Origin: a virus
Direction: 5' to 3' (one strand)
DNA: 27,186 nt
Virus record (IMG/VR): IMGVR_UViG_3300032288_005686
Coordinates: 1 to 27,186 of that record
A model generated the notes under the pieces. That model made no database searches and was not told where the DNA came from. It saw nothing but the letters and a program-made list of their open reading frames with translations. The first letter of the stretch is position 1, and each line of letters begins with the position of its first letter. Both the position numbers and the translations under genes were made by a program. Shown piece by piece: positions 4,064-19,815 of this stretch.

Positions 4064-4446
4064 GTGTATTAAGATTTCTTTCTGGAAAGCGTTTGTGATG
4101 AAGATAAATATAAATAAAACGCTACGATCGGGGTTTGCGAGGAAATGGGAAAAAGGAACAACGAAGAAAACAAAAGCATTGGGAATAAGGATATGCGATT
4201 TGGCACTGAAATGGTAAGTGCCGTCTCGTCATATAAGCTTTCTCTCCCCTTTTTAAAAAGCTCTGATTCTGTCGGGTGTTGCCCCCTGTCGGGGGCTGTT
4301 CCCTGGCCAGTTTGACTAGCCATTTTTTCAATCTTAAACCGCTGTTATAGGAACAACGGAATAAGACTGCAACTAACACAACCAAGGTCTCTCAAAACCC
4401 ACAATAATAGATATAAAATAAAATAAAATATAAGTCAATAAAAAAA
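4064..4446. other. 383-base structured spacer, no convincing gene
   Basis: This spacer is locally much richer in G and C than its surroundings. On the minus strand it holds, in order: an 8-bp hairpin (arms 4339-4346 and 4352-4359, CCGTTGTT/AACAGCGG); a TGGC/GCCA hairpin near 4302-4322; a very stable GCCCCC-GACA-GGGGGC hairpin near 4275-4290; the GACGAGACG motif; and a 7-bp inverted repeat AGCGTTT/AAACGCT near 4087-4122. Two overlapping minus-strand open frames cross it, but neither has a ribosome-binding site. It looks like a terminator and leader region separating two operons. Confidence 0.6.
4222..4232 (-). promoter_or_regulatory. GACGAGACG motif, putative phage promoter (copy 1)
   Basis: The minus strand reads TATATGACGAGACGGCAC. 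It is one of six exact copies of GACGAGACG, all on the minus strand upstream of leftward genes. This one lies about 160 bases before the 4063 start and some 40 bases past a GC-rich hairpin. Confidence 0.5.
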
Positions 4447-7176: not shown

Positions 7177-7242
7177 TTGATTTTCCTTTCTACGATACAG
7201 ATACCAACGATTAGTGCAGAATTACACTAACCATTGGAAGCT

Positions 7243-7303
7243 ACCAAGACCATTGAGATTACTCTCTAGGTTTCGGCCTTGCTTAAGGGCCTCATCAGTT
7301 GGT
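7243..7303 (-). ncRNA. Type I hammerhead ribozyme candidate (A)
   Basis: Minus-strand RNA. CUGAUGA lies at 7298-7292, stem II GGCC/GGCC at 7291-7288 and 7278-7275, then GAA at 7274-7272. Stem III closes with ACC (7271-7269) against GGU (7251-7249), with an inner GAGA-GUAA-UCUC hairpin. Cleavage is predicted after GUC, between 7248 and 7247. Open stem I pairs UUGGU (7247-7243) with ACCAA (7303-7299). All canonical core bases are present. The 5' strand of stem I overlaps the stop codon of the gene at 7303-7515. Confidence 0.85.
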
Positions 7304-7515
7304 TACCAATTAATATGATGTGTTGAGCCATCTTTGAAAATAACTTCTTCTATGTTATTTTCAATTACAATGCCATCAATGTCAAACGCCTTATTTTTTA
7401 CCAATTCAATTGTTTCTGGGGAAACAAACAATCCTTCGCTTACTACACCAAAACTATTAACAAAACCAATTAGATTTAAATCTTTATAAACTTCAACTTG
7501 TACAAATGCTTTCAT
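7303..7515 (-). CDS. Hypothetical protein, 70 aa
   Basis: Not recognised. A small soluble protein with beta-like alternation (KAFVQVEVYKDLNLIGFVNS, FDIDGIVIENNIEEVIFKDG). AGGAG lies 8 bases before the ATG at 7515. Its mRNA would be bounded by the tRNA-like element (7631-7675) at the 5' side and hammerhead A at the 3' side; the stop codon's last base is part of stem I of that ribozyme. Confidence 0.77.
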   Translation of the reverse strand: MKAFVQVEVYKDLNLIGFVNSFGVVSEGLFVSPETIELVKNKAFDIDGIVIENNIEEVIFKDGSTHHINW

Positions 7516-7549
7516 TTTAAATCTCCTTTTTTGAAAAATCTTATGCAGA

Positions 7550-7573
7550 TGTATAAACGGAATTGTCTATACA
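7550..7573 (-). other. Leader hairpin, 9-bp stem
   Basis: UGUAUAGAC pairs fully (one G-U) with GUUUAUACA around the loop AAUUCC. It lies about 35 bases upstream of the 7515 start, and a second AT-rich inverted repeat (CTTTAAAA/TTTTAAAG, near 7577-7613) lies behind it. There is no U-tract, so a leader or protective structure is more likely than a terminator. Confidence 0.5.
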
Positions 7574-7630
7574 CCCTTTAAAACGAAAAACACCACCATT
7601 CTATTTTTAAAGTAGTTCGTTCTACTATAA

Positions 7631-7675
7631 ATCCTAATTAAGGAATCGAACCTTAACAAACCACCTGGTTAGGAT
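7631..7675 (-). ncRNA. Truncated tRNA-like element (copy 1)
   Basis: The minus strand folds into an acceptor-like stem AUCCUAA/UUAGGAU (7675-7669 with 7637-7631) stacked on a T-arm UUAAGG-UUCGAUU-CCUUAA with a canonical T-loop. A 12-base linker (7668-7657) containing GGUGG replaces the D and anticodon arms. There is no anticodon arm, so it is not a decoding tRNA. A second copy with the same 12-base linker length lies at 15871-15913. It overlaps the last three codons and stop of the upstream gene. The acceptor/T minihelix is the minimal substrate type for RNase P and CCA-adding enzymes. Confidence 0.7.
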
Positions 7676-8325
7676 ACTACCTCATATTCCCACTCAAAAT
7701 TACCCTTTACATATGAATATCGCGCGAAAAATACATCCTCCCTTAAACGCACATAAAATGCGTTTGTTTGATATTCTTCCTTGTCCTCATTTACCTGTAA
7801 TAGAATTTCATCTTCAATATGAGGAATCACATCCTTCATAGTCTCAAATTCCGTAAATTGTAATTCCATGAAAGGATTAGATTGGGATCCATTCATTGCA
7901 TCAAACAAGCCATCAAATACTTCCTTCTCCTTCTCATAGATTCCCAATTGATTTTGTTCATAGAGGATATCCATGTACTCGATATCGTTAATTAGGTCTT
8001 CAAATATTTGCGCATCATAAACTCCATAATTCTCTCCATCTTTACTTACTAATACTTTATCTTTTACATATGAACATCTAAATCCATTTTCATTTCCGAC
8101 CTCACATAAATAATATAACAATTCCTTATCTTCAAAAGACAATTTAGTTACCAAATGAGGATGACATTCCAAATATACTTCCATCTTCTTCCATACCTTT
8201 ATGTCTCTATTAAATATATTCAAAGGTAATTGTTTACTATATGCTAATACGCCATTAATATTAATTATTACTTCTACAATTGCTGGACTGTTTAAATTAG
8301 TCTCTAATAAAGTAAGATTAATCAT
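7669..8325 (-). CDS. Hypothetical protein, 218 aa
   Basis: Not recognised. A large soluble acidic protein rich in Glu, Tyr and Val; it opens MINLTLLETNLNSPAIVEVI and ends FEWEYEVVS. AAGGAG lies 10 bases before the ATG at 8325. The message would be released by hammerhead candidate B upstream. Its stop codon lies inside the acceptor stem of the tRNA-like element at 7631-7675, so 5' cleavage of that element would leave the mRNA without its stop codon. Confidence 0.8.
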   Translation of the reverse strand: MINLTLLETNLNSPAIVEVIININGVLAYSKQLPLNIFNRDIKVWKKMEVYLECHPHLVTKLSFEDKELLYYLCEVGNENGFRCSYVKDKVLVSKDGENYGVYDAQIFEDLINDIEYMDILYEQNQLGIYEKEKEVFDGLFDAMNGSQSNPFMELQFTEFETMKDVIPHIEDEILLQVNEDKEEYQTNAFYVRLREDVFFARYSYVKGNFEWEYEVVS

Positions 8326-8352
8326 AATCTTTTTCTCCTTCTACATAGGGGG

Positions 8353-8434
8353 TTGGTTTCGATACCCGCAACGGTACCCATATTGCCGGAATTGACAATA
8401 CTTTCTTCAGCTGACTAACGCATCCCAGGACCAA
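8353..8434 (-). ncRNA. Variant type III hammerhead candidate (B) with inserted hairpin
   Basis: Minus strand. Stem III pairs UUGGU (8434-8430) with ACCAA (8357-8353). Cleavage is predicted after GUC at 8429. Stem I pairs CUGG (8428-8425) with UCAG (8414-8411); the core CUGAAGA (8410-8404) fits CUGANGA. Stem II is GGUACC/GGUAUC (8378-8373 with 8366-8361), then GAA (8360-8358). The oddity is a complete extra hairpin (arms 8401-8396 and 8385-8380) inserted between the core A9 and stem II, exactly where candidates D-G carry a single extra U. Confidence 0.5.
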
Positions 8435-8506
8435 GGGATATTAAGCATCCCAAGCTTTGATTTTTATACAGAGTTTTCTCTCTGGATGACATTGTAATAT
8501 TATTAG

Positions 8507-8650
8507 TTAGATTTGCTGTTCACTTAAAACAGCTACGATGAAAAGTTCACCACCAGTATTTTCACTGATGATACCAGCTAATTGGCTTAAAGTTTGAGCC
8601 TTGATAGACTCAACCTGGCCGTTATTTAATAAACAAGTAAATAATCTCAT
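8507..8650 (-). CDS. Small hypothetical protein, 47 aa
   Basis: Translated from the ATG at 8650, which has a strong AGGAAGG site 7 bases upstream. The product begins MRLFTCLLNNGQVESIKAQT and ends FIVAVLSEQQI. It is soluble and not recognised. The gene stands alone: terminator (8767-8787), GACGAGACG motif (8738-8748) and a 90-base leader lie upstream, and hammerhead candidate B lies downstream. Confidence 0.72.
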   Translation of the reverse strand: MRLFTCLLNNGQVESIKAQTLSQLAGIISENTGGELFIVAVLSEQQI

Positions 8651-8737
8651 GAATCACCTTCCTTTCAAAGTGTGAGATCTGTTAAATCCCGAATACCAAG
8701 AAAACCTTGATACCGAGAACCTTATACAATTTTTGGC

Positions 8738-8748
8738 CGTCTCGTCTT
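8738..8748 (-). promoter_or_regulatory. GACGAGACG motif, putative phage promoter (copy 2)
   Basis: The minus strand reads GTTAAGACGAGACGGCC. It starts about 20 bases past the terminator U-tract and 90 bases before the 8650 start, the order expected for a promoter. It is the only copy preceded by AA rather than AT. Confidence 0.55.
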
Positions 8749-8766
8749 AACGCCGTACTTGAGTGT

Positions 8767-8787
8767 AAAAAAACCCCCTTACGGGAG
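8767..8787 (-). terminator. Rho-independent terminator
   Basis: CUCCC-GUAA-GGGGG (8787-8774, one U-G pair) is followed by seven U, 9 bases past the stop of the 8796-9146 gene. It has the textbook shape: stable stem, GNRA tetraloop, U-tract. Confidence 0.88.
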
Positions 8788-8795
8788 CAAAAACC

Positions 8796-9146
8796 TTAAC
8801 TGACGATAGCTTTATAATTCACAATCGCGGGTAACTTTGATTGTGTAAAACTATTGCTAGCAGATACACCAGTGTACATACGTACGGAACCGCCCAAACT
8901 GACGATATCTTTGGCCAATTTACAAAAGGCATCGATTTCATCTGCCGAGTTTAGGGGATTACTCCCCAGTACGATGTTTTCACCACCAGTAGGACCAGTT
9001 AACTTTTGACCCAAAAGTAGCCTTTCGGTTACTTGAGCCTTTAGTTTCTCCCTGTCGGCGTTAACTAATAGTAGTTTTACGTCTTCAGGAAGACTATCCC
9101 ATACAGTGGCTTGTACGCTTGCAGGTTTTTCTAATACAGTAGACAT
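8796..9146 (-). CDS. Hypothetical protein, 116 aa
   Basis: Not recognised. Soluble, Ala/Leu/Val-rich (MSTVLEKPASVQATVWDSLP..., then LLLVNADREKLKAQVTERLL) with a Gly/Ser-rich middle (GPTGGENIVLGSNPL). Base and codon use is closer to even than in the AT-rich operon to the left. AAAGGAAA precedes the ATG at 9146. Its message is bounded by hammerhead candidate C upstream and a strong terminator downstream. Confidence 0.8.
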   Translation of the reverse strand: MSTVLEKPASVQATVWDSLPEDVKLLLVNADREKLKAQVTERLLLGQKLTGPTGGENIVLGSNPLNSADEIDAFCKLAKDIVSLGGSVRMYTGVSASNSFTQSKLPAIVNYKAIVS

Positions 9147-9253
9147 ATAAATTTCCTTTCGATAAATAAATATATTACAATGTCACCTGCTATCTGGAGG
9201 AGATAATCTTTAGGCGGAGTCTTATAATAAGCGTATACACCTAAATACAGGTA

Positions 9254-9282
9254 TGAATTATAATTTCCACAATTATAATTCA
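9254..9282 (-). other. Perfect 12-bp leader hairpin
   Basis: UGAAUUAUAAUU pairs without mismatch with AAUUAUAAUUCA around a 5-base loop GUGGA. It lies about 23 bases downstream of hammerhead C's cleavage site, so it would sit close to the 5' end of the processed mRNA for the 9146 gene, where it could protect against 5'-end-dependent decay. Confidence 0.55.
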
Positions 9283-9304
9283 ATTAAGTTAATCCAAAAT
9301 GGGT

Positions 9305-9362
9305 GGAAGACCATCGGGTTACCCCTAGGTTTCGTCTGGCCCCCGCCAGACTCATCAGTCCC
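9305..9362 (-). ncRNA. Type I hammerhead ribozyme candidate (C)
   Basis: Minus strand. CUGAUGA (9358-9352), perfect 7-bp stem II GUCUGGC/GCCAGAC with GGGG loop (9351-9334), GAA (9333-9331). Stem III closes ACC/GGU with inner GGG-GUAA-CCC, mirroring candidate A. Cleavage is predicted after GUC, between 9309 and 9308. Stem I pairs UUCC (9308-9305) with GGGA (9362-9359). The element begins immediately after the stop codon (9363-9365). Core bases are all canonical. Confidence 0.87.
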
Positions 9363-9752
9363 TTATTGGTAATAATCATCATCATTATCGTCTAAAGCAT
9401 AGTTTGATTTTGATTCTGATTCTGGTTTCTCCTCTACTACTAATTGCTTAGTACTAGAGAGTAAAGGAGTAGGTTTTTTAGTTTCTATTTCCGCTACATT
9501 TTTCTCCTTTGGCATTGAGCCATAGAAGTTGTAAGTGTTGTGGATAATTGTTGTAGGGTGATGAGGTAGTATAATGGCTTTCATTTCCATTGCTATCTCA
9601 TTTCTTTTTTGAGCAGTGCAGGATTTTTTTAATTCCGCATTAGTGATTAATACGGTAATTGAAAAATCCTTTTCTATCATGAAGGCTGCGATTACTCGTG
9701 GGCCTTCATTTTCTCTGAGTAGTTCTTTCAAGATTTCTTCATCTTCACTCAT
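9363..9752 (-). CDS. Hypothetical acidic protein, 129 aa
   Basis: Not recognised. An N-terminal globular part (about residues 1-70) is followed by a low-complexity, Lys/Glu/Ser-rich tail ending LDDNDDDYYQ, which looks disordered and strongly acidic. AAAGGA precedes the ATG at 9752. It is the first gene after the polymerase-like gene, separated from it by a terminator-like hairpin; the type I hammerhead C starts at its stop codon. Confidence 0.78.
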   Translation of the reverse strand: MSEDEEILKELLRENEGPRVIAAFMIEKDFSITVLITNAELKKSCTAQKRNEIAMEMKAIILPHHPTTIIHNTYNFYGSMPKEKNVAEIETKKPTPLLSSTKQLVVEEKPESESKSNYALDDNDDDYYQ

Positions 9753-9784
9753 ATATATCCTTTCTTTTTGATTGAGTGATTTTT

Positions 9785-9853
9785 AAAAACATACATAGGG
9801 GGCAACTAAAATACTTAAAAATAAATTTAAATACTTTAACAGCCCCCGATGTA
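9785..9853 (-). terminator. Terminator-like hairpin after the 1702-codon gene
   Basis: UACAU-C-GGGGGC (9853-9842) pairs with GCCCCC-U-AUGUA (9803-9792), 11 bp with one mismatch and a 38-base AT-rich loop, followed by UGUUUUU. The long loop makes it less typical, and no promoter motif follows it, so read-through into the 9752 gene is likely. Confidence 0.6.
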
Positions 9854-9871
9854 CAGGGGAAGACAAAAAGA

Positions 9872-12800
9872 CTATAGACTGCCTTCTTCAGTAAACTCTA
9901 ACTTCAATGAAGGTCGGGTAAAGTAGAACGCAAAAGGAGAATTAACCAATGATTCATTACCGTATTTCTTGTAATGAATTAGACTCAGACAAGCTCTTAG
10001 TTCTTTAGAACCGGATTTGTTGATTAAGCCTTTCATACAATTATCTACGATAGCTGGATCCATTCCGTTCCACTTCTTAATCCCTAGGCCTATTTCTAAA
10101 TTCGTTAAGAATCTGGAATTCAAACCTAAGAAATTCAAAATATAAATTCCCGCTTCTAGACCTGCAAGATCTATCGCAGTTGTATACATTTGTGCCATAG
10201 AGACACTCTTGTGATACACGATAGATTGTTCAAAAGGAGAATATGCTGTAGAAGCTTTGAATTTCTGATATTCAGTTACTTTTTCTGCTTTCTTGTAGGT
10301 TTGACTATAGCCTGAATCAGGTCTATAATTGTCATTTCTACCAAAAGCGATAGGTTGACCGAATATTTGGGCTGCCAAAAGTTGAACAGAATGTGGATAG
10401 AGATTATTTAAAATTTCATCAAAATTGTCAGAACCTTGCAATGGCGCATTCATAGGTATACCTAATGAATCATGCGCAGCTTTTCTGAATAATTGAACCA
10501 TGTTGAAACCTTTATTCTCTCTTCTCTTTTTCTCAAACATGTTTTCCAAAAGAAAACAATAAGGGACGAATACGGCTCTGTCATATTCCATATCTTCCCC
10601 TCTGTATTTCTTTGTACTTTTTGTTTTGAGTTCAAAAGAGACTGAATGGATCAAGTCTAATGCTCTTAATAAATCACTACCTTTCAGTAGTTCATAAGAG
10701 GCATAATCTTGATTCTTCATATCCACACAAGACAACTTGAACATTCTCTTCTTGCTAGTCACCTCTTTATCTCCATATTCTATAAATACACCGTCATCTG
10801 GCGTACCTACAACCTTATTAATCTGGTTGAGGGAGATGATTTGACCAAAACCGAAATTAAGATCAAGTGCGATGTATTTTTGTATTTCTATTCCTTGTCT
10901 TTGCAGATGCTTGGTCATGAGACTAAAGTACTGCACCCATTCCTCGGACCTTTTAATTCTTCCTTCTACCGCGCTTACAACTTTCTCTAGTTTGATAGAT
11001 AAGTTGGTACCACAAAGTAGTAAGCCACCAATTATCTCCGCCCAAAATTCCCAAGCAAAATTAAAATTAGCTCTTGGATTTAGAGCTTTCTCAGAGATCC
11101 ACTCTCTGCCTCCCCAAACTTTAATTTCCTTAATTACCAATCCCTTGTTTTTCTCTACTTGCTCTTTACCAAAGAACTTCATCCCCATTTCTAAGCGGTC
11201 GATAAAGGTTAGACAAGATTCGACATCAGACCATCTTTCATCTTTTTGAGCTTTTAACTCATGAGAAAGATTTGCATTTTTGTCATCGAGGAGAAGTTGA
11301 ATCATTGATAGCTTGAATTCATTCCTCCAGCCAGCGATTACTTCTTCGCTAAAAGCATTCTTTACATCATTGAATTTCTCAATAATGAAAGGTAAGAAGT
11401 ATTCATTTTGGAAATCTACTCTTTCAGAGTTCTTTGCAGACTCCGAAATAGCTTCTAAACAATCCGCTAAGAATTCTACAAAGAGGTCTTTTTTATCTTC
11501 CTCAATAACTATCTTGTTTTGATAGTATTTCGCCGCAGCAAATTTTACTGCATTCTCGAATTGATTCAGATATAAAGCTCTTCTTTCTTGATTGACTTGA
11601 CTGTTTAGAAGGCCTTTCCAAACCCTATTGGCAAAGGCTTCTTCCCAATTCGCTAATTCACCTTCACCCTCGAACTCTTTGAAGACTGATGCAACATGTG
11701 CAATTTTTTCTCTTGCGCTCTCAACACTTGCTTGTCTAGAGGACTGTGCAGTGTTTTCTTTTGCTCTTGCCTTTAGGGCTTGAGAAATCAAGAAAGCATC
11801 AGAGAATAATCTACAATGAGAATCTGGAGTTAATTCTTTATTATCATCCAAACGGATAAGGAATTCAGAAGATTCATAAGAGTTTAAAATGTTATCTTTG
11901 ACAACTTCTCTTACCTCTCTCAAAGAAGAGATATTAGTAGAGAATTTAGTGTTGAACAAAGAGTTAAACTCCGCATCTATATGAGTTTTAACCAAACTCA
12001 TATGAGTAGGTCTCTTACAATCATCAGAAGCAGATTTCAACCATTTTAAGAGATTCTTTCTGTCCACCAGAAAATAAGAATCCATCTTATCACAAGAAGA
12101 AGACGACCAAGTTGCAATTCCTCTAACCCACTCCTTGCCATCCCTTTCCTCTCCCCCACCTTCCACCATTTTAATATTTCCATTAATCAGTTCCTCATAA
12201 ATCTCCTGCCAATCTCCCTCCGCTTTCCCTGTCCATTGTGCTAATTTGAATGCAAATAGCACAGTTTGAGACCACACCAAGGCCCCTTTTACTGTATACC
12301 CCTGATTCTCATCAGTGATTTTAACCATCATGCCAGATTCCATATCTAGCATTTCCTCTTCCTTATCCATAAAGTTCTCCTGTTCAAACCAAGTAACAAC
12401 TTCTTCTTCAGAGCTAAATTTAATCTTGTCACTTCTGAATTTATCCTCCCCCATTACGATATAGGAGATACCAGGCACAATCATCATCTTATTACCCACA
12501 CTAATAGGCCCCCTAGATAAATGCCAATATTTTAGAGATGGAATCACATAAGCGTACTTTTGCCTATCGATGAACGCTTGTTGCACATCGAAGCAAGTAT
12601 AGAAGTATCTTCTAACCCATTCTAACATCCTTACTCCACCATTAGTTCTTTCTGCCTCAAAGTAGGTGGTTGCCATGGCAGCAACGTTGGTAATACCGCC
12701 AACGTTTAATTGACCGCCATTTTTGACAGTGAGAAACATAGATAAATCCTCAATACTGTCATTGTCGTCTTGTTCCATAAATTCCAGAGCTTTCTTCATT

Positions 12801-14980
12801 TCCTTTTCTTGTTTTACCCCACTAAAAACAGAACTTTTAATTACCAACTTTTTACTCTGCTCTTTGGTTGGTCTTTCATCCCTTACGAAACCAATTAATT
12901 TAGCTATACACACCCATAGCCTATTGGTTGTAAGGATATTTCTATCACCATCATTATCCCCTGTAACGATGGCTTGCAATTCAGTGCTTACCCAAATGAT
13001 ATCATCTATCAATTGGGGAGCAATAACTGCACGATAGAAAGACTTGAAAGAGGCTATTTCGTTATCATTCATGGCCCCAAATATTACATTCCTGATTTCT
13101 TGATACTTATTCTCCAGTTTACCCTCTATTACCGCATCCCATGCATCGCGGTAATCAATGAGATGCACCAATTGGACTGAGCTTGCATCCTGATTTGGAG
13201 TACGAGTGAGACAAGCTTCTAACCATGGCTTGTCTCCAAAGTTTCTTCTCTCTTCGGGACTCCATTTTCCCAATACGACATCTCCCGCACCAAAACTCAT
13301 CATGTTTACGTATTTACTTGCACCTTTTATTTCAAAGGTGTTCACAAGATGCGCATATTTCTCCCCCTCAAGAGAGTTCATGATACCCAATAGATTAGGA
13401 CTCTCATCCAAATGGTTTTGATTTAAAATCTTAGCCAATTTAGATTCAATCCCCTTGCTCAATAAGGAGAAGAATTCATCTTTAAGAGCGTCTATTGTGT
13501 CATCGCCAGTGACATTTAAAGCTAATAACAATTGGCTAATTTGCCAGTTATTACTAGTCTTTAAATTTTGTTTGTCTTTTGCAATGATTGTGAACAACCC
13601 TTCTCTTTTGAGAATACCATCAGCTCCCAAATCTACCTTCTTTCCTTTACCCTTTAAGGTAGAAGGAGTAACCAATGCGCCTTTCCAATATTTGACGCCA
13701 TTTAATTCGATACTATAACCTCTTGAATACCTGAGGTCATTAATAAATTCCTCCAATTCCCTTTTATCTTTTTCCCCTAAATTCAAGTCCTTATAATTAA
13801 CCAAGGACAATACCCCATTTTCTTCCTTAACTAGATATGCCGATCTAGCAAGAAAACCTTTTGCAAATACACCTCTATCGATGTATCTAAACTGGTGTCC
13901 CACCTTATCTAAGACACCAACAGTTGCCAATGCCGCACCATCATTGCCTTCCCAAGGCAAGACCGCATCAGATACCAGGAATACTGGCAAATCATTCATA
14001 TATTCACAGCTCTTTAAAGCAGGAGTAGTGATGAATGACTTGAGATACCCTCTTTGTTCTGTAAAGTTATTGAAAACCTCACCAGACAAAGTTATGATAT
14101 TCTTCCATAATTCAGTAGACACATAAATTCCCTCAGCTACTGGGTGATAGCCAATCCTTGCCATAGCCTTGATGAAACCACGGCGGGTTGAAGAAGATAG
14201 ATCCATTGACACTTTTACGATGTCTTCTGGACTATAACTGATTCCAAATTTTTCCAATAGGGTAAACAAACTGGAATTCCAATCTGTTGTCCCCTTTAGA
14301 ATCACATTGAAATCATTTATTTCCTCTGTATCAAATGCCATCGCCTTTGCACTGGTCACTGATTTTGCTTTGGCTTCGGAAACCACAGCAATTTCAGCGA
14401 CAATTCTCATTCCTTTTTTATTGGATAGAGAATCTTTCAACTCATTTTTTAGTTTATTTACGAAGCTGGATCTCTTCGTTAAACCATTATGAGTCTCAAT
14501 AGTACCATTACCAGCAGAAGAAAGAGATTTTCCAACTTTTGCACCTAAAGAAAGTGCTAAGTTTAAAAACAAAGGAGAAACTCTACCAATCAATAGAGAG
14601 GTAAAGAAACTCAATCCTTTTTCTTTTCGAGCTTCAACAAAAATCTCAAGGTCACGATAGAAAAGAACCAAGCCACGAGACCACGAAGAGGTTTTGGCTC
14701 TATCTTTGCGCGCTACCAATTTGGCTTTGCGTTCAACTTTAGCTTTTGCTTTACGTTGCTTTTCAGCTTCGTAAATCGCTGTGGTTCTGGCTTTAGCTTC
14801 GATCTCTGCTCTTACTCTTGCTTCTTCATCAGCTTTGGCTTTCTTTGCTCCCTCTGCGAGTGCATTGAAAACAGCCAATTTAACCAATGCATTGTTTAAT
14901 GCACAAAAGTGGTCACTTGTACCACATCCGCTAGAAATCACTGATTTTAAATCAGCAATTAAATTTAATAAACTTTCCAT
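9872..14980 (-). CDS. Putative single-chain double-psi-beta-barrel RNA polymerase
   Basis: A 1702-residue protein, the largest in the window. Residues 675-679 read DNDGD inside VTGDNDGDRNI, matching the DxDGD metal-binding signature of two-barrel RNA polymerases (bacterial beta', QDE-1/cellular RdRP, YonO, crAss-phage polymerases). About 80 residues earlier, TRTPNQ (592-597) fits the RxP motif that precedes DxDGD in that superfamily. Residues about 44-96 are a charged Ala/Lys/Glu helix, unusual for such enzymes. I could not place the second-barrel lysines, so assignment rests on one strong and one weak motif. The ATG at 14980 follows GGAG. Two tandem GACGAGACG motifs and a 12-bp leader hairpin lie upstream. 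It could transcribe phage genes; RNA-templated activity cannot be excluded. Confidence 0.6.
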   Translation of the reverse strand: MESLLNLIADLKSVISSGCGTSDHFCALNNALVKLAVFNALAEGAKKAKADEEARVRAEIEAKARTTAIYEAEKQRKAKAKVERKAKLVARKDRAKTSSWSRGLVLFYRDLEIFVEARKEKGLSFFTSLLIGRVSPLFLNLALSLGAKVGKSLSSAGNGTIETHNGLTKRSSFVNKLKNELKDSLSNKKGMRIVAEIAVVSEAKAKSVTSAKAMAFDTEEINDFNVILKGTTDWNSSLFTLLEKFGISYSPEDIVKVSMDLSSSTRRGFIKAMARIGYHPVAEGIYVSTELWKNIITLSGEVFNNFTEQRGYLKSFITTPALKSCEYMNDLPVFLVSDAVLPWEGNDGAALATVGVLDKVGHQFRYIDRGVFAKGFLARSAYLVKEENGVLSLVNYKDLNLGEKDKRELEEFINDLRYSRGYSIELNGVKYWKGALVTPSTLKGKGKKVDLGADGILKREGLFTIIAKDKQNLKTSNNWQISQLLLALNVTGDDTIDALKDEFFSLLSKGIESKLAKILNQNHLDESPNLLGIMNSLEGEKYAHLVNTFEIKGASKYVNMMSFGAGDVVLGKWSPEERRNFGDKPWLEACLTRTPNQDASSVQLVHLIDYRDAWDAVIEGKLENKYQEIRNVIFGAMNDNEIASFKSFYRAVIAPQLIDDIIWVSTELQAIVTGDNDGDRNILTTNRLWVCIAKLIGFVRDERPTKEQSKKLVIKSSVFSGVKQEKEMKKALEFMEQDDNDSIEDLSMFLTVKNGGQLNVGGITNVAAMATTYFEAERTNGGVRMLEWVRRYFYTCFDVQQAFIDRQKYAYVIPSLKYWHLSRGPISVGNKMMIVPGISYIVMGEDKFRSDKIKFSSEEEVVTWFEQENFMDKEEEMLDMESGMMVKITDENQGYTVKGALVWSQTVLFAFKLAQWTGKAEGDWQEIYEELINGNIKMVEGGGEERDGKEWVRGIATWSSSSCDKMDSYFLVDRKNLLKWLKSASDDCKRPTHMSLVKTHIDAEFNSLFNTKFSTNISSLREVREVVKDNILNSYESSEFLIRLDDNKELTPDSHCRLFSDAFLISQALKARAKENTAQSSRQASVESAREKIAHVASVFKEFEGEGELANWEEAFANRVWKGLLNSQVNQERRALYLNQFENAVKFAAAKYYQNKIVIEEDKKDLFVEFLADCLEAISESAKNSERVDFQNEYFLPFIIEKFNDVKNAFSEEVIAGWRNEFKLSMIQLLLDDKNANLSHELKAQKDERWSDVESCLTFIDRLEMGMKFFGKEQVEKNKGLVIKEIKVWGGREWISEKALNPRANFNFAWEFWAEIIGGLLLCGTNLSIKLEKVVSAVEGRIKRSEEWVQYFSLMTKHLQRQGIEIQKYIALDLNFGFGQIISLNQINKVVGTPDDGVFIEYGDKEVTSKKRMFKLSCVDMKNQDYASYELLKGSDLLRALDLIHSVSFELKTKSTKKYRGEDMEYDRAVFVPYCFLLENMFEKKRRENKGFNMVQLFRKAAHDSLGIPMNAPLQGSDNFDEILNNLYPHSVQLLAAQIFGQPIAFGRNDNYRPDSGYSQTYKKAEKVTEYQKFKASTAYSPFEQSIVYHKSVSMAQMYTTAIDLAGLEAGIYILNFLGLNSRFLTNLEIGLGIKKWNGMDPAIVDNCMKGLINKSGSKELRACLSLIHYKKYGNESLVNSPFAFYFTRPSLKLEFTEEGSL

Positions 14981-15000
14981 TTGTTACTCCATGGAAAAAG

Positions 15001-15053
15001 GGTAGGGTTCTTACTGTATGTAAGGAACGAAAAGGGTGATGAAGAACCCTACC
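15001..15053 (-). promoter_or_regulatory. 12-bp leader hairpin before polymerase gene, possible attenuator
   Basis: GGTAGGGTTCTT and AAGAACCCTACC (15053-15042 and 15012-15001) pair perfectly; the minus strand continues CTTTTTCC, then the GGAG site and ATG at 14980. Hairpin plus short U-tract between promoter motifs and start codon is the shape of an attenuator. Confidence 0.55.
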
Positions 15054-15081
15054 TGTTACAGATTTTTACAAGAAACCAAGT

Positions 15082-15093
15082 CGTCTCGTCATT
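15082..15093 (-). promoter_or_regulatory. GACGAGACG motif, putative phage promoter (copy 3)
   Basis: The minus strand reads AAAAATGACGAGACGACTT, about 100 bases before the polymerase-like gene. It is the downstream member of a tandem pair spaced exactly 15 bases. Confidence 0.55.
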
Positions 15094-15096
15094 TTT

Positions 15097-15108
15097 CGTC
15101 TCGTCATT
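15097..15108 (-). promoter_or_regulatory. GACGAGACG motif, putative phage promoter (copy 4)
   Basis: The minus strand reads GGTAATGACGAGACGAAAAA. Upstream member of the tandem pair, lying about 25 bases past the UUCG hairpin and T-run at 15133-15163. The TAATGACGAGACGAA form is shared with copies 5 and 6. Confidence 0.55.
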
Positions 15109-15132
15109 ACCAGCCAAAAAATATGTACCTGG

Positions 15133-15163
15133 AAAAAATAACACAACGGACACCGAAGCATCC
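15133..15163 (-). terminator. UUCG hairpin with T-run, possible terminator
   Basis: GGAUGC-UUCG-GUGUCC (15163-15148, a C(UUCG)G tetraloop with U-G and G-U pairs) is followed, after GUUGUGUUA, by six U. The gap before the U-tract is longer than ideal. Its position just upstream of the tandem promoter motifs fits the terminator-then-promoter order seen elsewhere. Confidence 0.5.
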
Positions 15164-15351
15164 ATGGTTACTTATTTTTTCAACATACTTGACAAATAAC
15201 TAGACGGCTAATGGTTAAGGGACAGGGCTTCAGGGTAATCACCAAGATGGTGACGGGACGATGTGCGCTTGTTAATTTCGCTAAGAGGTGTGTTATAATT
15301 AACAACTGGCACACCAATGTTGAGATTAAGATGTATTCATTTTAACTCTCT

Positions 15352-15377
15352 GGGGGTTTTGGGTTGGGGTTTTGGGG
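15352..15377 (+). repeat. G-quadruplex-forming tract (G5T4G3T2G4T4G4)
   Basis: Four runs of at least three G separated by 2-4 T on the plus strand; in leftward transcripts the RNA is the C-rich strand. The TTTTGGGG units resemble ciliate telomere repeats by composition only. Confidence 0.7.
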
Positions 15378-15475
15378 TTTTTGAATAACAGGAATTACAC
15401 CTGTACTTTGACGCTGATTTCCTATTAAGTTAGGACGAATCAATTTTGTGGCGCATAACAGCCTACCTTTCTCTG

Positions 15476-15808
15476 TTAATAACAGACGAAGCTATTAACT
15501 GATAAATAGACCCAATTAGGTCCATTCTCAGTCAAAGTAAACATGTTGATTGGAAAACCAAAGTAGCATCTTTTTGCTTTTACAATAGCGAAGAAATGCA
15601 AACAAAACAGAACCCATTGGCTTCTATTGAAGAAGCCACGATTCGCTGCGAAGACATGCTTCAGTGCATGTAGCACTTCTACATCAACACATTCAATTTC
15701 GTTCTTGTTTACCAAAGCTTTGATTGTTGCCACTAAAGCCTCTAGTTTCCCAGAAGCTTTAAGAGCACTCTTTAGTGCTCTAGGAATAGAAAAAATCCAT
15801 TTACCCAT
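15476..15808 (-). CDS. Hypothetical basic protein, 110 aa
   Basis: Not recognised. The N-terminal half is helical and Ala/Lys-rich (SIPRALKSALKASGKLEALV); the C-terminal half is aromatic and Cys-containing (RSQWVLFCLHFFAIVKAKRC). The ATG at 15808 follows AAAGGATC. Its leader carries the GACGAGACG motif and the second truncated tRNA-like element, so the transcript would begin with, or be processed at, that element. The open -1 frame after the stop is noted under findings. Confidence 0.72.
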   Translation of the reverse strand: MGKWIFSIPRALKSALKASGKLEALVATIKALVNKNEIECVDVEVLHALKHVFAANRGFFNRSQWVLFCLHFFAIVKAKRCYFGFPINMFTLTENGPNWVYLSVNSFVCY

Positions 15809-15870
15809 GATATTGATCCTTTCAATGGGAGTTGGAGGGAAGGGTTGCTATAGCTTGTTGCAACCTTAAT

Positions 15871-15913
15871 GTCTTAAATGAGAATCGAACTCATTTTAAA
15901 TCACCAGAAAGAC
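15871..15913 (-). ncRNA. Truncated tRNA-like element (copy 2)
   Basis: Minus strand: GUCUU (15913-15909) pairs with AAGAC (15875-15871); T-arm AAAUGAG-UUCGAUU-CUCAUUU (15896-15876) has the same T-loop as copy 1. The 12-base linker (15908-15897), UCUGGUGAUUUA, matches copy 1's linker at CNGGUGRUUU. Total helix is 12 bp. No anticodon arm. It sits in a gene leader, 11 bases past the promoter motif. Confidence 0.65.
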
Positions 15914-15923
15914 CGGGGTTTTT

Positions 15924-15935
15924 CGTCTCGTCATT
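15924..15935 (-). promoter_or_regulatory. GACGAGACG motif, putative phage promoter (copy 5)
   Basis: The minus strand reads TGTAATGACGAGACGAAAAA. It lies about 25 bases past the terminator at 15961-15982 and about 115 bases upstream of the 15808 start. Confidence 0.6.
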
Positions 15936-15960
15936 ACAAAAGTTCAAAAAAAACCTATAT

Positions 15961-15982
15961 AAAAAAAGACTTAAAAAGCCTT
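15961..15982 (-). terminator. Rho-independent terminator
   Basis: AAGGCUU-UUU-AAGUCUU (15982-15966, one G-U) followed by five U, between hammerhead D and promoter copy 5. It ends the nucleotidyltransferase-like gene's transcript. Confidence 0.72.
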
Positions 15983-16047
15983 ATGATATACTTATAGATT
16001 ATTGATATTGAACATATATAAAGATAGATAGGACGAAACTGACGATT

Positions 16048-16104
16048 GCTATTTCGACCCTCAATTAGGTCATCATCAGAAGAAGGAGAAACCTTCTTGA
16101 TAGC
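16048..16104 (-). ncRNA. Type III hammerhead ribozyme candidate (D)
   Basis: Minus strand. Stem III GCUAU (16104-16100) with AUAGC (16052-16048). Cleavage is predicted after AUC, between 16099 and 16098. Stem I is a closed 7-bp hairpin AAGAAGG/CCUUCUU with UUUCU loop (16098-16080); core CUGAUGA (16079-16073); one extra U (16072); stem II GACC/GGUC (16071-16056); GAA (16055-16053). The extra U before stem II is shared with E, F and G. It lies 48 bases after the stop of the nucleotidyltransferase-like gene. Confidence 0.8.
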
Positions 16105-16152
16105 TATAAATAAATAGTGGGTATAATTAAATAAGACGATAAATACAGACTT

Positions 16153-16857
16153 TTACCAGCCGTTATTTTTGTCCCAAACAACAGCTTTATCCCACCATTT
16201 TTCCCTTCTTCTTCTTTCTTTTTTTATCTCCTCTTCTATTCTCCCCCTTCCTCTCTTGTTCGTTTTTTCTTTAGACCATTCCAAGAAAGAAATCCAATCC
16301 CTTCCATCATTTTCTACCTTTTTTCTTCCTTCTCTCTTCACCCATCTTAGTATCCCTTCTTCATCCCATTCTTGGGAATAGTTAAGGGTCGTATTCCATA
16401 CCCCCATCCTGTATCCCATAATTAACGCCCTCCATCTTTCCTTCTCCTCCTTGTAGGGAGAGCAATTTTCCTTTATTAAATTTTGGTTTCCGTTCTCCCC
16501 GAGAATATCTTTTAGGTCTCCAAAAAACCATACCTTCTTTTTCCATAATAAAATACACCCTCTATTGAGAGTGCAATCTACATTCTCAAGGTGATCCATT
16601 GCCGCTTCTTTAATTGTCTTTTCTTCTTTTAGTTCCATATCCAATCCCCCCTCTCGGGCTTTTAGATAAAGATCAATTGAAGAACAGAAGCAATCGGTGT
16701 CTTGGATATTAAAATCTGAATTTTTAAATTGTTTCCAAATTAATGCGCGCATCACTCCCCCTTTTAGAAAGAGAGGAGTATCACCAGCTAATTCTAATAA
16801 AGCAGAAAGAGAAGGAGAAGAAATAAGAATATTAAGATTCAACTTTACGATATTCAT
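16153..16857 (-). CDS. Class-II nucleotidyltransferase-like protein (CCA-adding/poly(A) polymerase fold)
   Basis: A 234-residue protein. FLKGGVMRALIW (residues 30-41) matches the GGxxR nucleotide-binding turn, DTD (53-55) the two catalytic aspartates, and NVDCTLNRG (92-100) the rRDFTxNA/NRG motif of CCA-adding enzymes and bacterial poly(A) polymerases. Spacing between motifs is as expected. The protein is short for the family (usually about 400), so the C-terminal body/tail domains that position tRNA are replaced by a Trp/Lys/Arg-rich region (KKERRRREKWWDK). Such enzymes add nucleotides to RNA 3' ends. Neighbouring tRNA-like minihelices are plausible substrates. The coding strand is strikingly purine-rich. 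The start lacks a Shine-Dalgarno site but has a leader hairpin shared with the 17682-18275 gene. Confidence 0.62.
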   Translation of the reverse strand: MNIVKLNLNILISSPSLSALLELAGDTPLFLKGGVMRALIWKQFKNSDFNIQDTDCFCSSIDLYLKAREGGLDMELKEEKTIKEAAMDHLENVDCTLNRGCILLWKKKVWFFGDLKDILGENGNQNLIKENCSPYKEEKERWRALIMGYRMGVWNTTLNYSQEWDEEGILRWVKREGRKKVENDGRDWISFLEWSKEKTNKRGRGRIEEEIKKERRRREKWWDKAVVWDKNNGW

Positions 16858-16880
16858 TTTGCAAGAGCTTGTTTATTTAT

Positions 16881-16900
16881 AGACCTCAAGCGAAAGGTCT
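16881..16900 (-). promoter_or_regulatory. Leader hairpin shared by two genes
   Basis: AGACCU/AGGUCU (6 bp, 8-base loop) is followed by AUAAAUAAACAAGCUC and the ATG at 16857. The same arrangement, with AGACU/AGUCU at 18299-18318 and AUAAAUAAAUAAGCUC, precedes the gene starting at 18275. Both genes lack a Shine-Dalgarno site, so this may be an alternative translation or stability element. Confidence 0.55.
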
Positions 16901-16910
16901 AGCTACAGTT

Positions 16911-16922
16911 CGTCTCGTCATT
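16911..16922 (-). promoter_or_regulatory. GACGAGACG motif, putative phage promoter (copy 6)
   Basis: The minus strand reads TGTAATGACGAGACGAACTG, 13 bases past the U-tract of the terminator at 16935-17003 and 54 bases upstream of the 16857 start. Confidence 0.6.
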
Positions 16923-16934
16923 ACAGGAATGAAT

Positions 16935-17003
16935 AAAAAACAGATTTAAAAAAAGGAATAAATCCCTTTATCTAATTCTATTATTCTTATTTATTAAATC
17001 TGT
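16935..17003 (-). terminator. Rho-independent terminator with long AT stem
   Basis: ACAGAUUUAA (17003-16994) pairs with UUAAAUCUGU (16949-16940), with a nested AAAGG/CCUUU stem, and six U overlap the end of the stem. It follows hammerhead E and precedes promoter copy 6. Confidence 0.7.
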
Positions 17004-17034
17004 AATTAAGAGATTAGAAAAGACACTGATGTTA

Positions 17035-17097
17035 TTCTTATTTCGGCCTTAAATTCAGCCATCATCAGGGAAGAGAGAAATACTCTTCCTATAAGAA
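17035..17097 (-). ncRNA. Type III hammerhead ribozyme candidate (E)
   Basis: Minus strand. 7-bp stem III UUCUUAU (17097-17091) with AUAAGAA (17041-17035). Cleavage is predicted after AUA at 17090. Closed stem I GGAAGAG/CUCUUCC with a 7-base loop (17089-17069); CUGAUGA (17068-17062); extra U (17061); stem II GGC/GCC (17060-17045); GAA (17044-17042). All core bases are canonical apart from the extra U. Confidence 0.82.
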
Positions 17098-17116
17098 AAT
17101 ATATAGATATATATGA

Positions 17117-17141
17117 AAGGATTCTTTTATGTAGAATCCTT
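17117..17141 (-). other. 9-bp hairpin between stop codon and hammerhead E
   Basis: AAGGAUUCU pairs perfectly with AGAAUCCUU (17141-17133 with 17125-17117). No U-tract follows. After ribozyme cleavage it would sit near the 3' end of the mRNA, where it could block 3' exonucleases. Confidence 0.6.
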
Positions 17142-17171
17142 GACTATTTACTTATTTTTTATTCTTTTTCT

Positions 17172-17534
17172 TTATTTGTGAGGGAAGAGAATTGGTCCCA
17201 CCCATTCCGCAAAGGACCAGTAGTAATACGCACAAATACATACCAGAATGAAGAATAGAATGTAAAAAATACCCATTGCTAACCACTTTAAACCTAGCAT
17301 TGCTGCTTCTACTAGATGTGGCTTTACAACCTCAAATAGTGCAACAAGTAACATTTTTACCTTAGATGGTTTGGCTTCACCTTTTCTTTGTAGTTTTGGA
17401 ATCACAACAGTGTCTATGAGCACTTCTGGGTACTCGCAGGCTTGTTGCTCGATAGGCGCACGATAAGGCTCCCTGGGCAGCTCAGCGTACTTGCTTAGGA
17501 TGGGGAATGTACCCCTTTGGAATTCTTTTGCCAT
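17172..17534 (-). CDS. Membrane-anchored protein, 120 aa
   Basis: Not recognised. The N-terminal 60 residues are soluble and Pro/Glu/Lys-rich; residues about 84-108 (LKWLAMGIFYILFFILVCIC) form a strong transmembrane segment, followed by a short aromatic tail. A tail-anchored inner-membrane protein is likely. AAAGGATAAATAAA precedes the ATG at 17534. Hammerheads F (upstream) and E (downstream) would release it as a single-gene message of about 560 bases. Confidence 0.77.
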   Translation of the reverse strand: MAKEFQRGTFPILSKYAELPREPYRAPIEQQACEYPEVLIDTVVIPKLQRKGEAKPSKVKMLLVALFEVVKPHLVEAAMLGLKWLAMGIFYILFFILVCICAYYYWSFAEWVGPILFPHK

Positions 17535-17561
17535 TTTATTTATCCTTTATGTTGGCATTAA

Positions 17562-17589
17562 GAAAAATCTCAACAATAATATTATTGAG
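17562..17589 (-). terminator. Terminator-like hairpin between hammerhead F and the 17534 gene
   Basis: CUCAAUAAU-AUU-AUUGUUGAG (17589-17569, 9 bp with one U-G) is followed by AUUUUUC. The shape is that of a terminator, yet the next gene starts 28 bases on with no promoter motif, so it may instead be an attenuator or a 5' protective hairpin of the cleaved mRNA. Confidence 0.55.
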
Positions 17590-17602
17590 CACGATATCTG
17601 AT

Positions 17603-17652
17603 AGGTTTCGGCTTGAGTTCGCCATCATCAGCATGGGACTACCCATGGACCT
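17603..17652 (-). ncRNA. Type III hammerhead ribozyme candidate (F)
   Basis: Minus strand. Stem III AGGU (17652-17649) with ACCU (17606-17603). Cleavage is predicted after GUC at 17648. Stem I CAUGGG/CCCAUG with UAGU loop (17647-17632); CUGAUGA (17631-17625); extra U (17624); stem II GGC/GCC (17623-17610); GAA (17609-17607). It lies 30 bases after the stop of the 17682-18275 gene. Stem III is short (4 bp). Confidence 0.82.
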
Positions 17653-17681
17653 TATTAATAAATAATAATAAAAGCAAAGGA

Positions 17682-18275
17682 CTAATTACTAAGACATCTT
17701 AAGCTTTTACACTTAGGTCTTTCTCCTTTTCTATGATAATTAATTGCTTTCAGTACTTTACCCAAAGTTGAGTAAGAGGAAAGGAATTTAGTACCTACAA
17801 ATAAGATTTCTTCTTCTTCGTGATAGAAGTAATCATTATCTACAGGTTCATCTATTTTTCCTCCCTTCCAATTTTTCTCCTTTCTACATTGAGAAGTGAT
17901 CCAATTTGAAATCGGAGGTAAATCCTTTGTCTTTCCACTTAATAATTGGTTGGTATCATCTCTCTCTTCATCTAAAGAGCCATGACTCTTTACAATGATA
18001 TAATCGCAATGAGGACCTACAATTCCAATATCCATAATACTCAAAATCGTTTGAGCACCAAGGATTGCTCCGTTGTGATCTATCCTCTCATCATCCGCTA
18101 AGAGGCAAATCCTAAAACCTTGTTCTTCAAGGTATAGGATCTTTTCAACGTCAGAGATTTCAATTTGAGCGAGAGGTTTGGGGACATATTCTTCTTCTTT
18201 TTGCTCTTGAAAAAGAACATAAGAAACAAGAAGAATGTAGGAGAAAGCAACAAAATGTAATACATATTTAATCAT
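17682..18275 (-). CDS. Predicted exported or membrane-anchored protein, 197 aa
   Basis: Not recognised. Residues about 3-22 (KYVLHFVAFSYILLVSYVLF) form an N-terminal membrane anchor or uncleaved signal; there is no lipobox. The following domain alternates hydrophobic strands and acidic loops (ICLLADDERIDHNGAILGAQ, CDYIIVKSHGSLDEERDD), which suggests an alpha/beta fold, but no catalytic motif can be named. Four Cys are scattered (about 57, 90, 130, 189-194). The start lacks a Shine-Dalgarno site and uses the shared leader hairpin. Hammerhead G lies in its leader, F after its stop. Confidence 0.75.
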   Translation of the reverse strand: MIKYVLHFVAFSYILLVSYVLFQEQKEEEYVPKPLAQIEISDVEKILYLEEQGFRICLLADDERIDHNGAILGAQTILSIMDIGIVGPHCDYIIVKSHGSLDEERDDTNQLLSGKTKDLPPISNWITSQCRKEKNWKGGKIDEPVDNDYFYHEEEEILFVGTKFLSSYSTLGKVLKAINYHRKGERPKCKSLRCLSN

Positions 18276-18329
18276 TTTATTTGAGCTTATTTATTTATAG
18301 ACTCTAAGCTTAAAGTCTAAAGACAGTTT

Positions 18330-18382
18330 CTGGTTTCGGCTTCAATTTGCCATCATCAGTACAGGAGAAACCTGTAGACCAA
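18330..18382 (-). ncRNA. Type III hammerhead ribozyme candidate (G)
   Basis: Minus strand. Stem III UUGGU (18382-18378) with ACCAG (18334-18330, last pair G-U). Cleavage is predicted after GUC at 18377. Stem I UACAGG/CCUGUA with UUUCU loop (18376-18360), the same loop as D; CUGAUGA (18359-18353); extra U (18352); stem II GGC/GCC (18351-18338); GAA (18337-18335). Confidence 0.85.
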
Positions 18383-18428
18383 GTGTTGCTTAAAGGGACA
18401 CCAACCCTACATACACGGTTCAGCTATT

Positions 18429-18702: not shown

Positions 18703-19083
18703 AATAAACTCCTTAAGTGTTTAGTTGTTGCGAACCTCTATTAATCGAAATTGATTAGTAAAGGTTGGGGAAAAGCATTTGATGAGTAGCGCTTACTACT
18801 CTCTGTTTTTTAGGCTATAACAGTAACCTCCATGTATACCGGGGTGGGCTCAAAAGAACCGAAAATCCCATGGCAACACTTATATAAACCTCCCCCATAT
18901 TTAAACTATATATTTTCGAGCCTTAATACATTTAAACTATATATTTCTCCCCTATATCCAATTTGCGCACATTCAAACTATACTTAGACCGGGGTGGGTG
19001 TTTTATTTCGCTTTTCCTTTTTGCTTTTTTTTGTTATTTTAAAATTTATAATTTTATATATTTTTCCCTATATAGGAGTTTTT
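18703..19083. promoter_or_regulatory. Divergent control region with direct repeats
   Basis: This region separates leftward and rightward genes. It holds ACCGGGGTGGG twice (18838-18848 and 18988-18998, exactly 150 bases apart). Between these are three copies of an AT-rich box, two of them ATTTAAACTATATATTT (about 18898 and 18930) and one looser ATTCAAACTATACTTAG (18971), with their AAACTA cores 31 and 41 bases apart, close to whole helical turns. These look like promoters or operator sites for the rightward virion operon. Toward 18703 there are hairpins GAGTAG/CTACTC (18784-18801) and AACCT..TAATC/GATTA..AGGTT (18730-18763). Confidence 0.55.
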
Positions 19084-19815
19084 ATGTCTAAAGAAGAGAG
19101 ACAATTGCAATATTTTCAAAAAGTTAGCACCGATGAAAGATATGAAAAATATCTTTCAAAAATCCCAACACATAAATTAACTCATATTAAGAATAAAGTA
19201 GCTACTCAAGGGGTCTACACTATTTCTCCTATTATCTGTCAAGGTCCAGATAAATGTCCTTTTCTTTCTAGATGTCCTATTCCTGAAGTTGATGATAATG
19301 GCAAATTAAATAAGTTAAGTTTAGATATGTATCCTGTTAATCAAGCTTGTATTGTAGAAAAATATTTTGTTGAGCAGAAGACTATCGAATATATGCAACA
19401 TTTAGATGTAGATCCTTCCAATCCAGTAGAGATGTCTATTGTAGAAGAATTAGCTTTAATTGATTTATATAAGAATAGAGCTTTAACTGTTTTATCTAAT
19501 GGCGATAAGAATGGTTTTGGTAAGGATTTTTTACTTACTGAGATTACTGGGTTTAATGAAAATGGTGATGTTGCTACTCAAACTAAATTACACCCTTTAT
19601 TAGAGCTAATAGATAGATTAGAGAGAAGACGCGAGAGATGGTTGGAGAAGTTAATGGAGACTAGAACCTCTAAAGCTGCATTTATTAGCAAGCTAGGTTC
19701 CGAGCAAACTAATTCTAAAGTTTTAGGAGAGATACAAAAGCTTAGGGAAGCTTTATTAATTCAACAAGATTCTGTTACTATTGTTGGAGATGAGATTTTA
19801 CTGGATGAAAAATGA
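19084..19815 (+). CDS. Cys-motif phage protein at head of packaging operon
   Basis: I chose the ATG at 19084 (MSKEERQLQYFQKVS), which follows TAGGAG at 7 bases, over a GTG at 18994 that would add a 30-residue hydrophobic stretch translated from the promoter region. The 243-residue product has C52-x5-C58-x5-C64-x24-C89 (CQGPDKCPFLSRCP), which suggests a metal or Fe-S site, then a helical charged C-terminal half (LIDRLERRRERWLEKLMETR). Its place at the head of the operon ending in terminase raises the possibility of a small terminase subunit, but that is positional inference only. The stop overlaps the next ATG by 4 bases. Confidence 0.78.
   Translation: MSKEERQLQYFQKVSTDERYEKYLSKIPTHKLTHIKNKVATQGVYTISPIICQGPDKCPFLSRCPIPEVDDNGKLNKLSLDMYPVNQACIVEKYFVEQKTIEYMQHLDVDPSNPVEMSIVEELALIDLYKNRALTVLSNGDKNGFGKDFLLTEITGFNENGDVATQTKLHPLLELIDRLERRRERWLEKLMETRTSKAAFISKLGSEQTNSKVLGEIQKLREALLIQQDSVTIVGDEILLDEK

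Follow-up and report, generated by a model that had tools for sequence, protein, structure and literature searches.

The virus record IMGVR_UViG_3300032288_005686, a complete IMG/VR viral record of 27,186 bases that was analysed over its whole length (the window), comes from a tailed phage whose leftward genes are interspersed with hammerhead ribozymes. The assignment to a tailed phage follows from the large terminase subunit gene at its right end (25639-27186, plus strand). Judged from sequence and position, at least six hammerheads, four of type III and two of type I, most likely cut their own transcripts soon after synthesis, yielding gene-sized messages with protected ends.

Identification of the hammerheads

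The window was scanned with a descriptor for types I and III (CTGANGA, an optional 1-nt insert, stem II, GAA, the A15.1-U16.1 pair, and stems I, II and III of at least 4, 3 and 3 bp respectively). Six matches were obtained, all on the minus strand and all among seven candidates that a preliminary description of this DNA had proposed; 200 dinucleotide-preserving shuffles, searched on both strands, gave a mean of 0.035 matches per window. In the case of 18330-18382 the top pairing of the descriptor took a wrong downstream GAA (18324-18381), and the register used here is that of the covariance model and the fold.

Two covariance models were built solely from elements of two related phages, G001 and G002 (see below), with no window sequence: R1 from two type III elements and R2 from four type I elements. 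With filters off, R1 gave four matches in the window (55.9, 49.8, 39.8 and 37.9 bits; next match E 0.06) and R2 gave two (76.6 and 38.3 bits; next match E 0.35); the tool itself warns that its E-values are rough, yet a wide gap separates these matches from the next. Six of the seven candidates are thus genuine hammerhead folds, confirmed by models free of window sequence, and the seventh, at 8353-8434, stays unproven.

The preliminary description had named Infernal with the Rfam hammerhead models as the check, and a lack of matches as grounds for dropping the proposal. That check would have misled: nothing in the window reaches an Rfam gathering cut-off, the best match under relaxed settings being HH9 (20.4 bits against a cut-off of 52). 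As the relative-built models do find the elements, this reflects the coverage of the Rfam models and not an absence of hammerheads. The descriptor found no type II hammerhead in the window or its relatives, and relaxing the stems gave only two weak further matches in the window, both within genes, which were rejected.

The six elements are as follows.

18330-18382, minus strand: hammerhead 1, type III; stem III UGGU/ACCA; predicted cut GUC^U, 18377/18376; R1 49.8 bits, E 1.3e-14; the minimum-energy fold is the hammerhead.
17603-17652, minus strand: hammerhead 2, type III; stem III AGGU/ACCU; predicted cut GUC^C, 17648/17647; R1 39.8 bits, E 3.2e-11 (match 17602-17653); the minimum-energy fold is the hammerhead.
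17035-17097, minus strand: hammerhead 3, type III; stems I and III of 7 bp each; predicted cut AUA^G, 17090/17089; R1 37.9 bits, E 1.5e-10 (match 17037-17095); fold z -2.4; 3' flank ACAUCAG complementary to the core.
16048-16104, minus strand: hammerhead 4, type III; predicted cut AUC^A, 16099/16098; R1 55.9 bits, E 1.1e-16; positional homologues L122:7686-7743 and L123:7485-7538.
9298-9362 (fold 9305-9362 plus 3' flank), minus strand: hammerhead 5, type I; predicted cut GUC^U, 9309/9308; R2 38.3 bits, E 4.8e-10; first base directly after a TAA stop (9363-9365); loop II GGG complementary to flank CCC.
7237-7303 (fold 7243-7303 plus 3' flank), minus strand: hammerhead 6, type I; predicted cut GUC^U, 7248/7247; R2 76.6 bits, E 2.1e-22; first base is the last base of a TAA stop (7303-7305); loop II AAGC complementary to flank GCUU.

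All six contain the core CUGANGA...GAA with A15.1-U16.1, and their NUH cleavage sites are GUC (four), AUC (one) and AUA (one). The four type III copies each have one extra U between A9 and stem II. As had been described, all seven candidates lie on the coding (minus) strand, each between a stop codon and the next gene, which was verified by reading the strand and the list of open reading frames (ORFs).

Conservation in related phages

Relatives were found via a protein of 273 amino acids (aa) (18994-19815, plus strand) and the large terminase (25639-27186, plus strand). They are G001 (56.5 kb), G002 (27.0 kb) and the fragment G003 (27.9 kb), with seven (three type III, four type I), six (four type III, two type I) and one hammerhead respectively. 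The gene junctions used are partly common to the window and its relatives while the arm sequences differ. Window 16048, L122:7686 and L123:7485 all lie upstream of homologues of a 110-aa gene, and the junction behind the gene that follows a 1702-aa gene holds a hammerhead in the window (9305, type I), in G001 (L122:480, type I) and in G002 (L123:371, type III). Since this one junction carries type I in the window and G001 and type III in G002, the ribozyme type has switched there. An extra residue after A9 is also found in type III elements of the relatives, as U in L122:8850 (G001) and as A in L123:7950 (G002).

Across the 12 type III copies, stems I, II and III all show changes on both sides, with up to four pair types (GC, CG, AU, UA) at a position. 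Pairing was itself the criterion by which these copies were selected, and the evidence is therefore the diversity of pairs and not the percentage paired. In the type I elements loop II is complementary to the 3' flank in varying sequence (AAGC/GCUU, GAAC/GUUU, GGAG/CUCC, GGG/CCC; permutation P 0.001); natural hammerheads use tertiary contacts of this kind. The claim that the arms covary while pairing is kept is supported for the six elements, on the evidence of the covariance models and of the switching of pair types.

A hairpin of the form GYGU-CCCUUUAAGC..-ACRC lies immediately 5' of a type III hammerhead both in the window (18383-18410, minus strand) and in G001 (L122 8906-8935, minus strand); its stem covaries from GUGU/ACAC to GCGU/ACGC and its loop is near-identical. 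The sole relative of the terminase in GTDB (64% identity) is L177 (PBNR01000029.1), a 67.6-kb contig in a metagenome-assembled genome of Gammaproteobacteria. This is a weak hint at the host group, the contig being possibly a co-binned phage.

Placement of type I hammerheads at stop codons

The stop codon ends 4 nt upstream of the core in both type I elements of the window, and in the clade a stop lies within 0-9 nt of the core in six of eight type I elements. The generality of this placement was assessed with two pattern scans of IMG/VR, with and without the extra U, each giving at least 120 rows, from which redundancy was removed before counting. An element was scored as abutting a stop when an ORF of at least 80 aa ended 0-10 nt before the core, the distance for type III being measured from the 5' end of the element. 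Among the matches listed, to which all counts from these scans refer, most loci contain a complete hammerhead, often as part of a series of 3 to 7. The upstream stop abuts 31/81 and 28/83 type I elements in the two scans (59/164 non-redundant), against 9/521 and 8/488 (17/1009) control CTGANGA sites that are not hammerheads (Fisher 3e-22 and 5e-19) and 0/20 and 1/19 (1/39) type III elements. The core's own UGA serves as the stop in 10/81 and 9/83 type I elements; this is partly mechanical, and type I is nevertheless enriched for it (P 0.016 and 0.005). Two samples of unrelated viral contigs thus show type I hammerheads placed at stop codons.

One dense series from the scans led to an annotated phage of the Ca. 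Heliusvirales (PV036454.1), in which two type I hammerheads have a core UGA that is also the annotated upstream stop (L305:13499-13553 and 12931-12985, minus strand); two other dense, unrelated series had no match to annotated phages. The rule is apparently unreported and is the part of this work most likely to be new: no mention of a link between type I and stop codons was found in the text of PMC3088659 or in the literature searched, a search that took in few subscription papers and preprints.

Probable transcription units and predicted products of cutting

The genes had been described as a single leftward block. The block is probably several transcription units, as it is interrupted by terminator-like hairpins and by repeated TGACGAGACG boxes. 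On the minus strand the TGACGAGACG box has five exact copies and two with a single mismatch, where 0.22 would be expected by chance, and the longer TAATGACGAGACGAA has three exact copies. The features concerned are listed below.

16952-16969, minus strand: terminator-like hairpin AAAGGGA-UUUA-UUCCUUU plus U run, 3' of hammerhead 3, in the 75%-identical repeat D2.
16909-16923, minus strand: TAATGACGAGACGAA box, a repeat; candidate phage promoter or regulatory site.
15966-15982, minus strand: terminator-like hairpin AAGGCUU-UUU-AAGUCUU plus U run, 3' of hammerhead 4.
15922-15936, minus strand: TAATGACGAGACGAA box, a repeat.
15080-15109, minus strand: double TGACGAGACG box with 15-nt spacing, 5' of the 1702-aa gene and likewise 5' of its G001 homologue.
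8738-8747 and 4222-4231, minus strand: further TGACGAGACG boxes, repeats.

The boxes have counterparts at the same places in G001 and, for part of them, in G002. The TGACGAGACG box is likely to be a phage promoter or control site and is a candidate for a promoter specific to the clade. Its reading as a hammerhead lacking stem II was rejected, as it reads AUGACGA, without C3 or space for stem II. Both hairpins were read from the sequence, and neither was listed by a mechanical terminator scan; hairpins similar to that at 15966-15982 are found at the same place in G001 and G002.

Behind hammerheads 3 and 4 the order is terminator-like hairpin, TGACGAGACG box, next gene. These two elements would thus lie in 3' untranslated regions before a terminator, and hammerheads 1, 2, 5 and 6 between genes. 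The proposal that the ribozymes cut the messages into single-gene units fits the elements at 18330, 17603, 9305 and 7243 and does not fit those at 17035 and 16048, where the hairpin and box that follow suggest that the predicted cut would trim a 3' end.

Further repeated elements were noted in the same regions. ACCGGGGTGGG occurs twice before the rightward gene block (about 18840-18850 and 18991-19001, plus strand), and G002, G003 and relatives further off have a single copy at the corresponding position; it is a second, different candidate promoter box, belonging to the rightward genes. Two hairpin copies, 75% alike and with an A-rich tail (18270-18328 and 16852-16910, minus strand), lie just 5' of the start codons of a 197-aa and a 234-aa gene, both without an obvious Shine-Dalgarno sequence. 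They can form an H-type pseudoknot, e.g. AGACCUUUCGCUUGAGGUCU-AUAAAUAAA-CAAGC, in a layout that recalls preQ1-type pseudoknots; there is no Rfam match.

Proposed function and alternatives

By established hammerhead chemistry, the ribozyme stays attached to the upstream RNA after a type I cut, and that RNA ends in a 2',3'-cyclic phosphate; after a type III cut it remains with the downstream RNA, whose first residue has a 5'-OH. Both kinds of end hinder common bacterial decay routes: RNase E and RppH work by way of 5' phosphates, and structured or blocked ends slow down 3' exonucleases. The placement can be understood in this light, as type I would give a short capped 3' end and type III a hairpin-capped 5' end. 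In the proposed mechanism, each ribozyme would cleave its own transcript at a gene border soon after it is made. A type I fold, directly behind the upstream stop, would stay on the 3' end of that message and end it in a 2',3'-cyclic phosphate, and a type III fold, further from the stop, would remain at the start of the downstream RNA, giving that RNA a 5'-OH followed by the stem I hairpin. Messages of gene size, with capped ends that resist nucleases, would result, along with 3'-end trimming where a terminator-like hairpin follows. We show here the folds, their conservation in relatives, their positions and the stop-codon rule; that the elements cleave in the cell and affect message stability is what we infer.

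Two results weigh against this reading. When 15-60 nt of 3' flank were added, alternative folds 1.5-4 kcal/mol more stable were obtained for five of the six elements, suggesting that hammerhead activity may be partial or timing-dependent. Moreover, among 32 whole records with related terminases the covariance models matched G001, G002 and G003 only; no hammerhead of these models was found in 27 relatives with less similar terminases, some of more than 100 kb, many of these records being fragments in which absence is unproven for each. The ribozymes are therefore not essential to this kind of phage.

The stop-codon rule also bears on whether cutting is constant. A ribosome terminating at a stop that touches stem I would cover the core, and cutting may await its release. 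It is possible, if somewhat short of probable, that type I elements are built onto stop codons so that the terminating ribosome gates both the cut and the 3' capping, with type III elements kept away from the stop and capping the 5' end of the next message. In a related reading the hammerheads are regulated switches and not constant cutters, and cut only while the core is free; besides the ribosome at type I stops, a 3' flank CAUCAG would block the core CUGAUG of some type III copies or lock the product after cutting. Besides the stop-codon rule, this draws on 6-7 bp of core antisense lying 1-3 nt from stem III at window 17035, window 16048, L122:7686 and L123:371 (chance about 0.054 per site) and on the minimum fold of 17000-17097, in which, with the flank included, the core is sequestered. 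However, most type III copies lack the antisense and two of the four sites share a junction, so that the statistics are modest, and the stop-codon position could simply save space. We consider switching an unlikely account of the series. As a general off-switch the antisense flank was rejected, being present in only 4 of 12 type III copies; behind those four it may add an off-switch to cutting.

That hammerheads are common in mobile DNA, and that one junction holds type I in the window and G001 and type III in G002, would suit relics of past insertions drifting without function. Relics would lose pairing, however, and cores and pairing are intact in 20 copies from phages whose 1702-aa-family proteins are only 23-37% identical, which makes this explanation very improbable. 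Successive hammerheads also flank single genes, and hammerhead-bearing circular RNAs are known in other systems (PMC4918200, PMC7761336), so that pairs of ribozymes might excise the intervening RNA, to circularise as in retrozymes and viroids. The spacers here are ordinary genes, however, and Perreault et al. (2011) sought circular or spliced products of a phage series and found none (PMC3088659); we give this idea hardly any credence. Constitutive cutting into gene-sized messages with protected ends is the explanation that we favour.

The irregular candidate at 8353-8434

The seventh candidate is type III-like.

8353-8434, minus strand: unproven, type III-like candidate; core CUGAAGA; possible cut GUC^C, 8429/8428.

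It was rejected as an ordinary hammerhead, since its core is irregular (CUGAAGA instead of CUGAUGA), it matches neither R1 nor R2, and a 25-nt insert, holding an 8-bp hairpin, separates A9 from stem II, which in the standard junction directly follows A9. With this insertion allowed, stem III (UUGGU/ACCAA), stem I (CUGG/UCAG) and stem II (GGUACC/GGUAUC) can pair; a comparable match with long insertions allowed was obtained in 1 of 60 shuffles, and the hammerhead fold is 1.1 kcal/mol above the minimum. The same junction in G001, behind a homologous 47-aa gene, holds a regular type I hammerhead (L131:724-777), and a G001 type I element (L131:1311-1383) carries 14 inserted nt after A9 and before stem II, the position of the single extra nucleotide in other copies. 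It is plausible that 8353-8434 is an irregular hammerhead variant.

The 1702-aa protein

9872-14980, minus strand: 1702-aa protein with an invariant GDNDGD motif.

The motif (DxDGD) is invariant in three phages, the relatives' proteins being 23-37% identical to that of the window. First tblastn and pattern searches with the 1702-aa protein gave no relatives, which the 273-aa and terminase queries did yield. Homologues were found only in phages with a hammerhead series, and the profile matches none of the 27 more distant terminase relatives; the series and this gene seem to travel together. GDNDGD is similar to the motif at the catalytic centre of double-psi beta-barrel RNA polymerases, and the protein is possibly RNA polymerase-like. 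An identification as RNA polymerase was not adopted, there being no sequence match in Pfam, PHROGs or PDB and the AlphaFold model being unusable round GDNDGD (mean predicted local distance difference test score 36).

Comparison with known systems

What the many phage hammerheads are for has been a question since 2011. Orthologous junctions with swapped types and six to seven ribozymes per genome make up a compact natural system, in which two ideas become testable: that ribozymes make stable gene-sized phage messages, and that translation termination controls the cut.

The nearest published case is that of Perreault et al. (2011), in which several hammerheads of different types flank single genes or short gene blocks in prophages and the same processing idea is put forward; 14 of 18 tested consensus hammerheads cleaved in vitro and one triple prophage series cleaved in E. 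coli (PMC3088659). The density of the window series had been called striking; given that publication and the many unrelated IMG/VR contigs with series of 3-7, it is not a first. The window shares with the prophage series the presence of several hammerheads on one strand at phage gene borders. It differs in belonging to a divergent clade with the 1702-aa DxDGD protein, in its four type III and two type I elements conserved across relatives, and in the TGACGAGACG boxes and terminator-like hairpins behind some copies; the type I stop-codon rule is not in that text.

The hammerhead variant of haloviruses HF1/HF2 lies in an operon leader and has a mapped 5' end no more than 3 nt from the cut (PMC3088659). 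It is a single copy with a variant core, whereas those of the window are canonical cores in series, and its nearest parallel is the G003 copy, just behind a divergent intergenic region. The extra residue after A9, found in all four window type III copies and in L122:8850 and L123:7950, has a parallel in the viroid CChMVd, where the residue is an A; in the present phage gene series it is mostly U. This extra core nucleotide between A9 and stem II of the CChMVd hammerhead was described by De la Pena and Flores (2001), as cited in PMC6155905. The window is thus a new clade's example of the phage hammerhead series already known since 2011, with conserved junctions.

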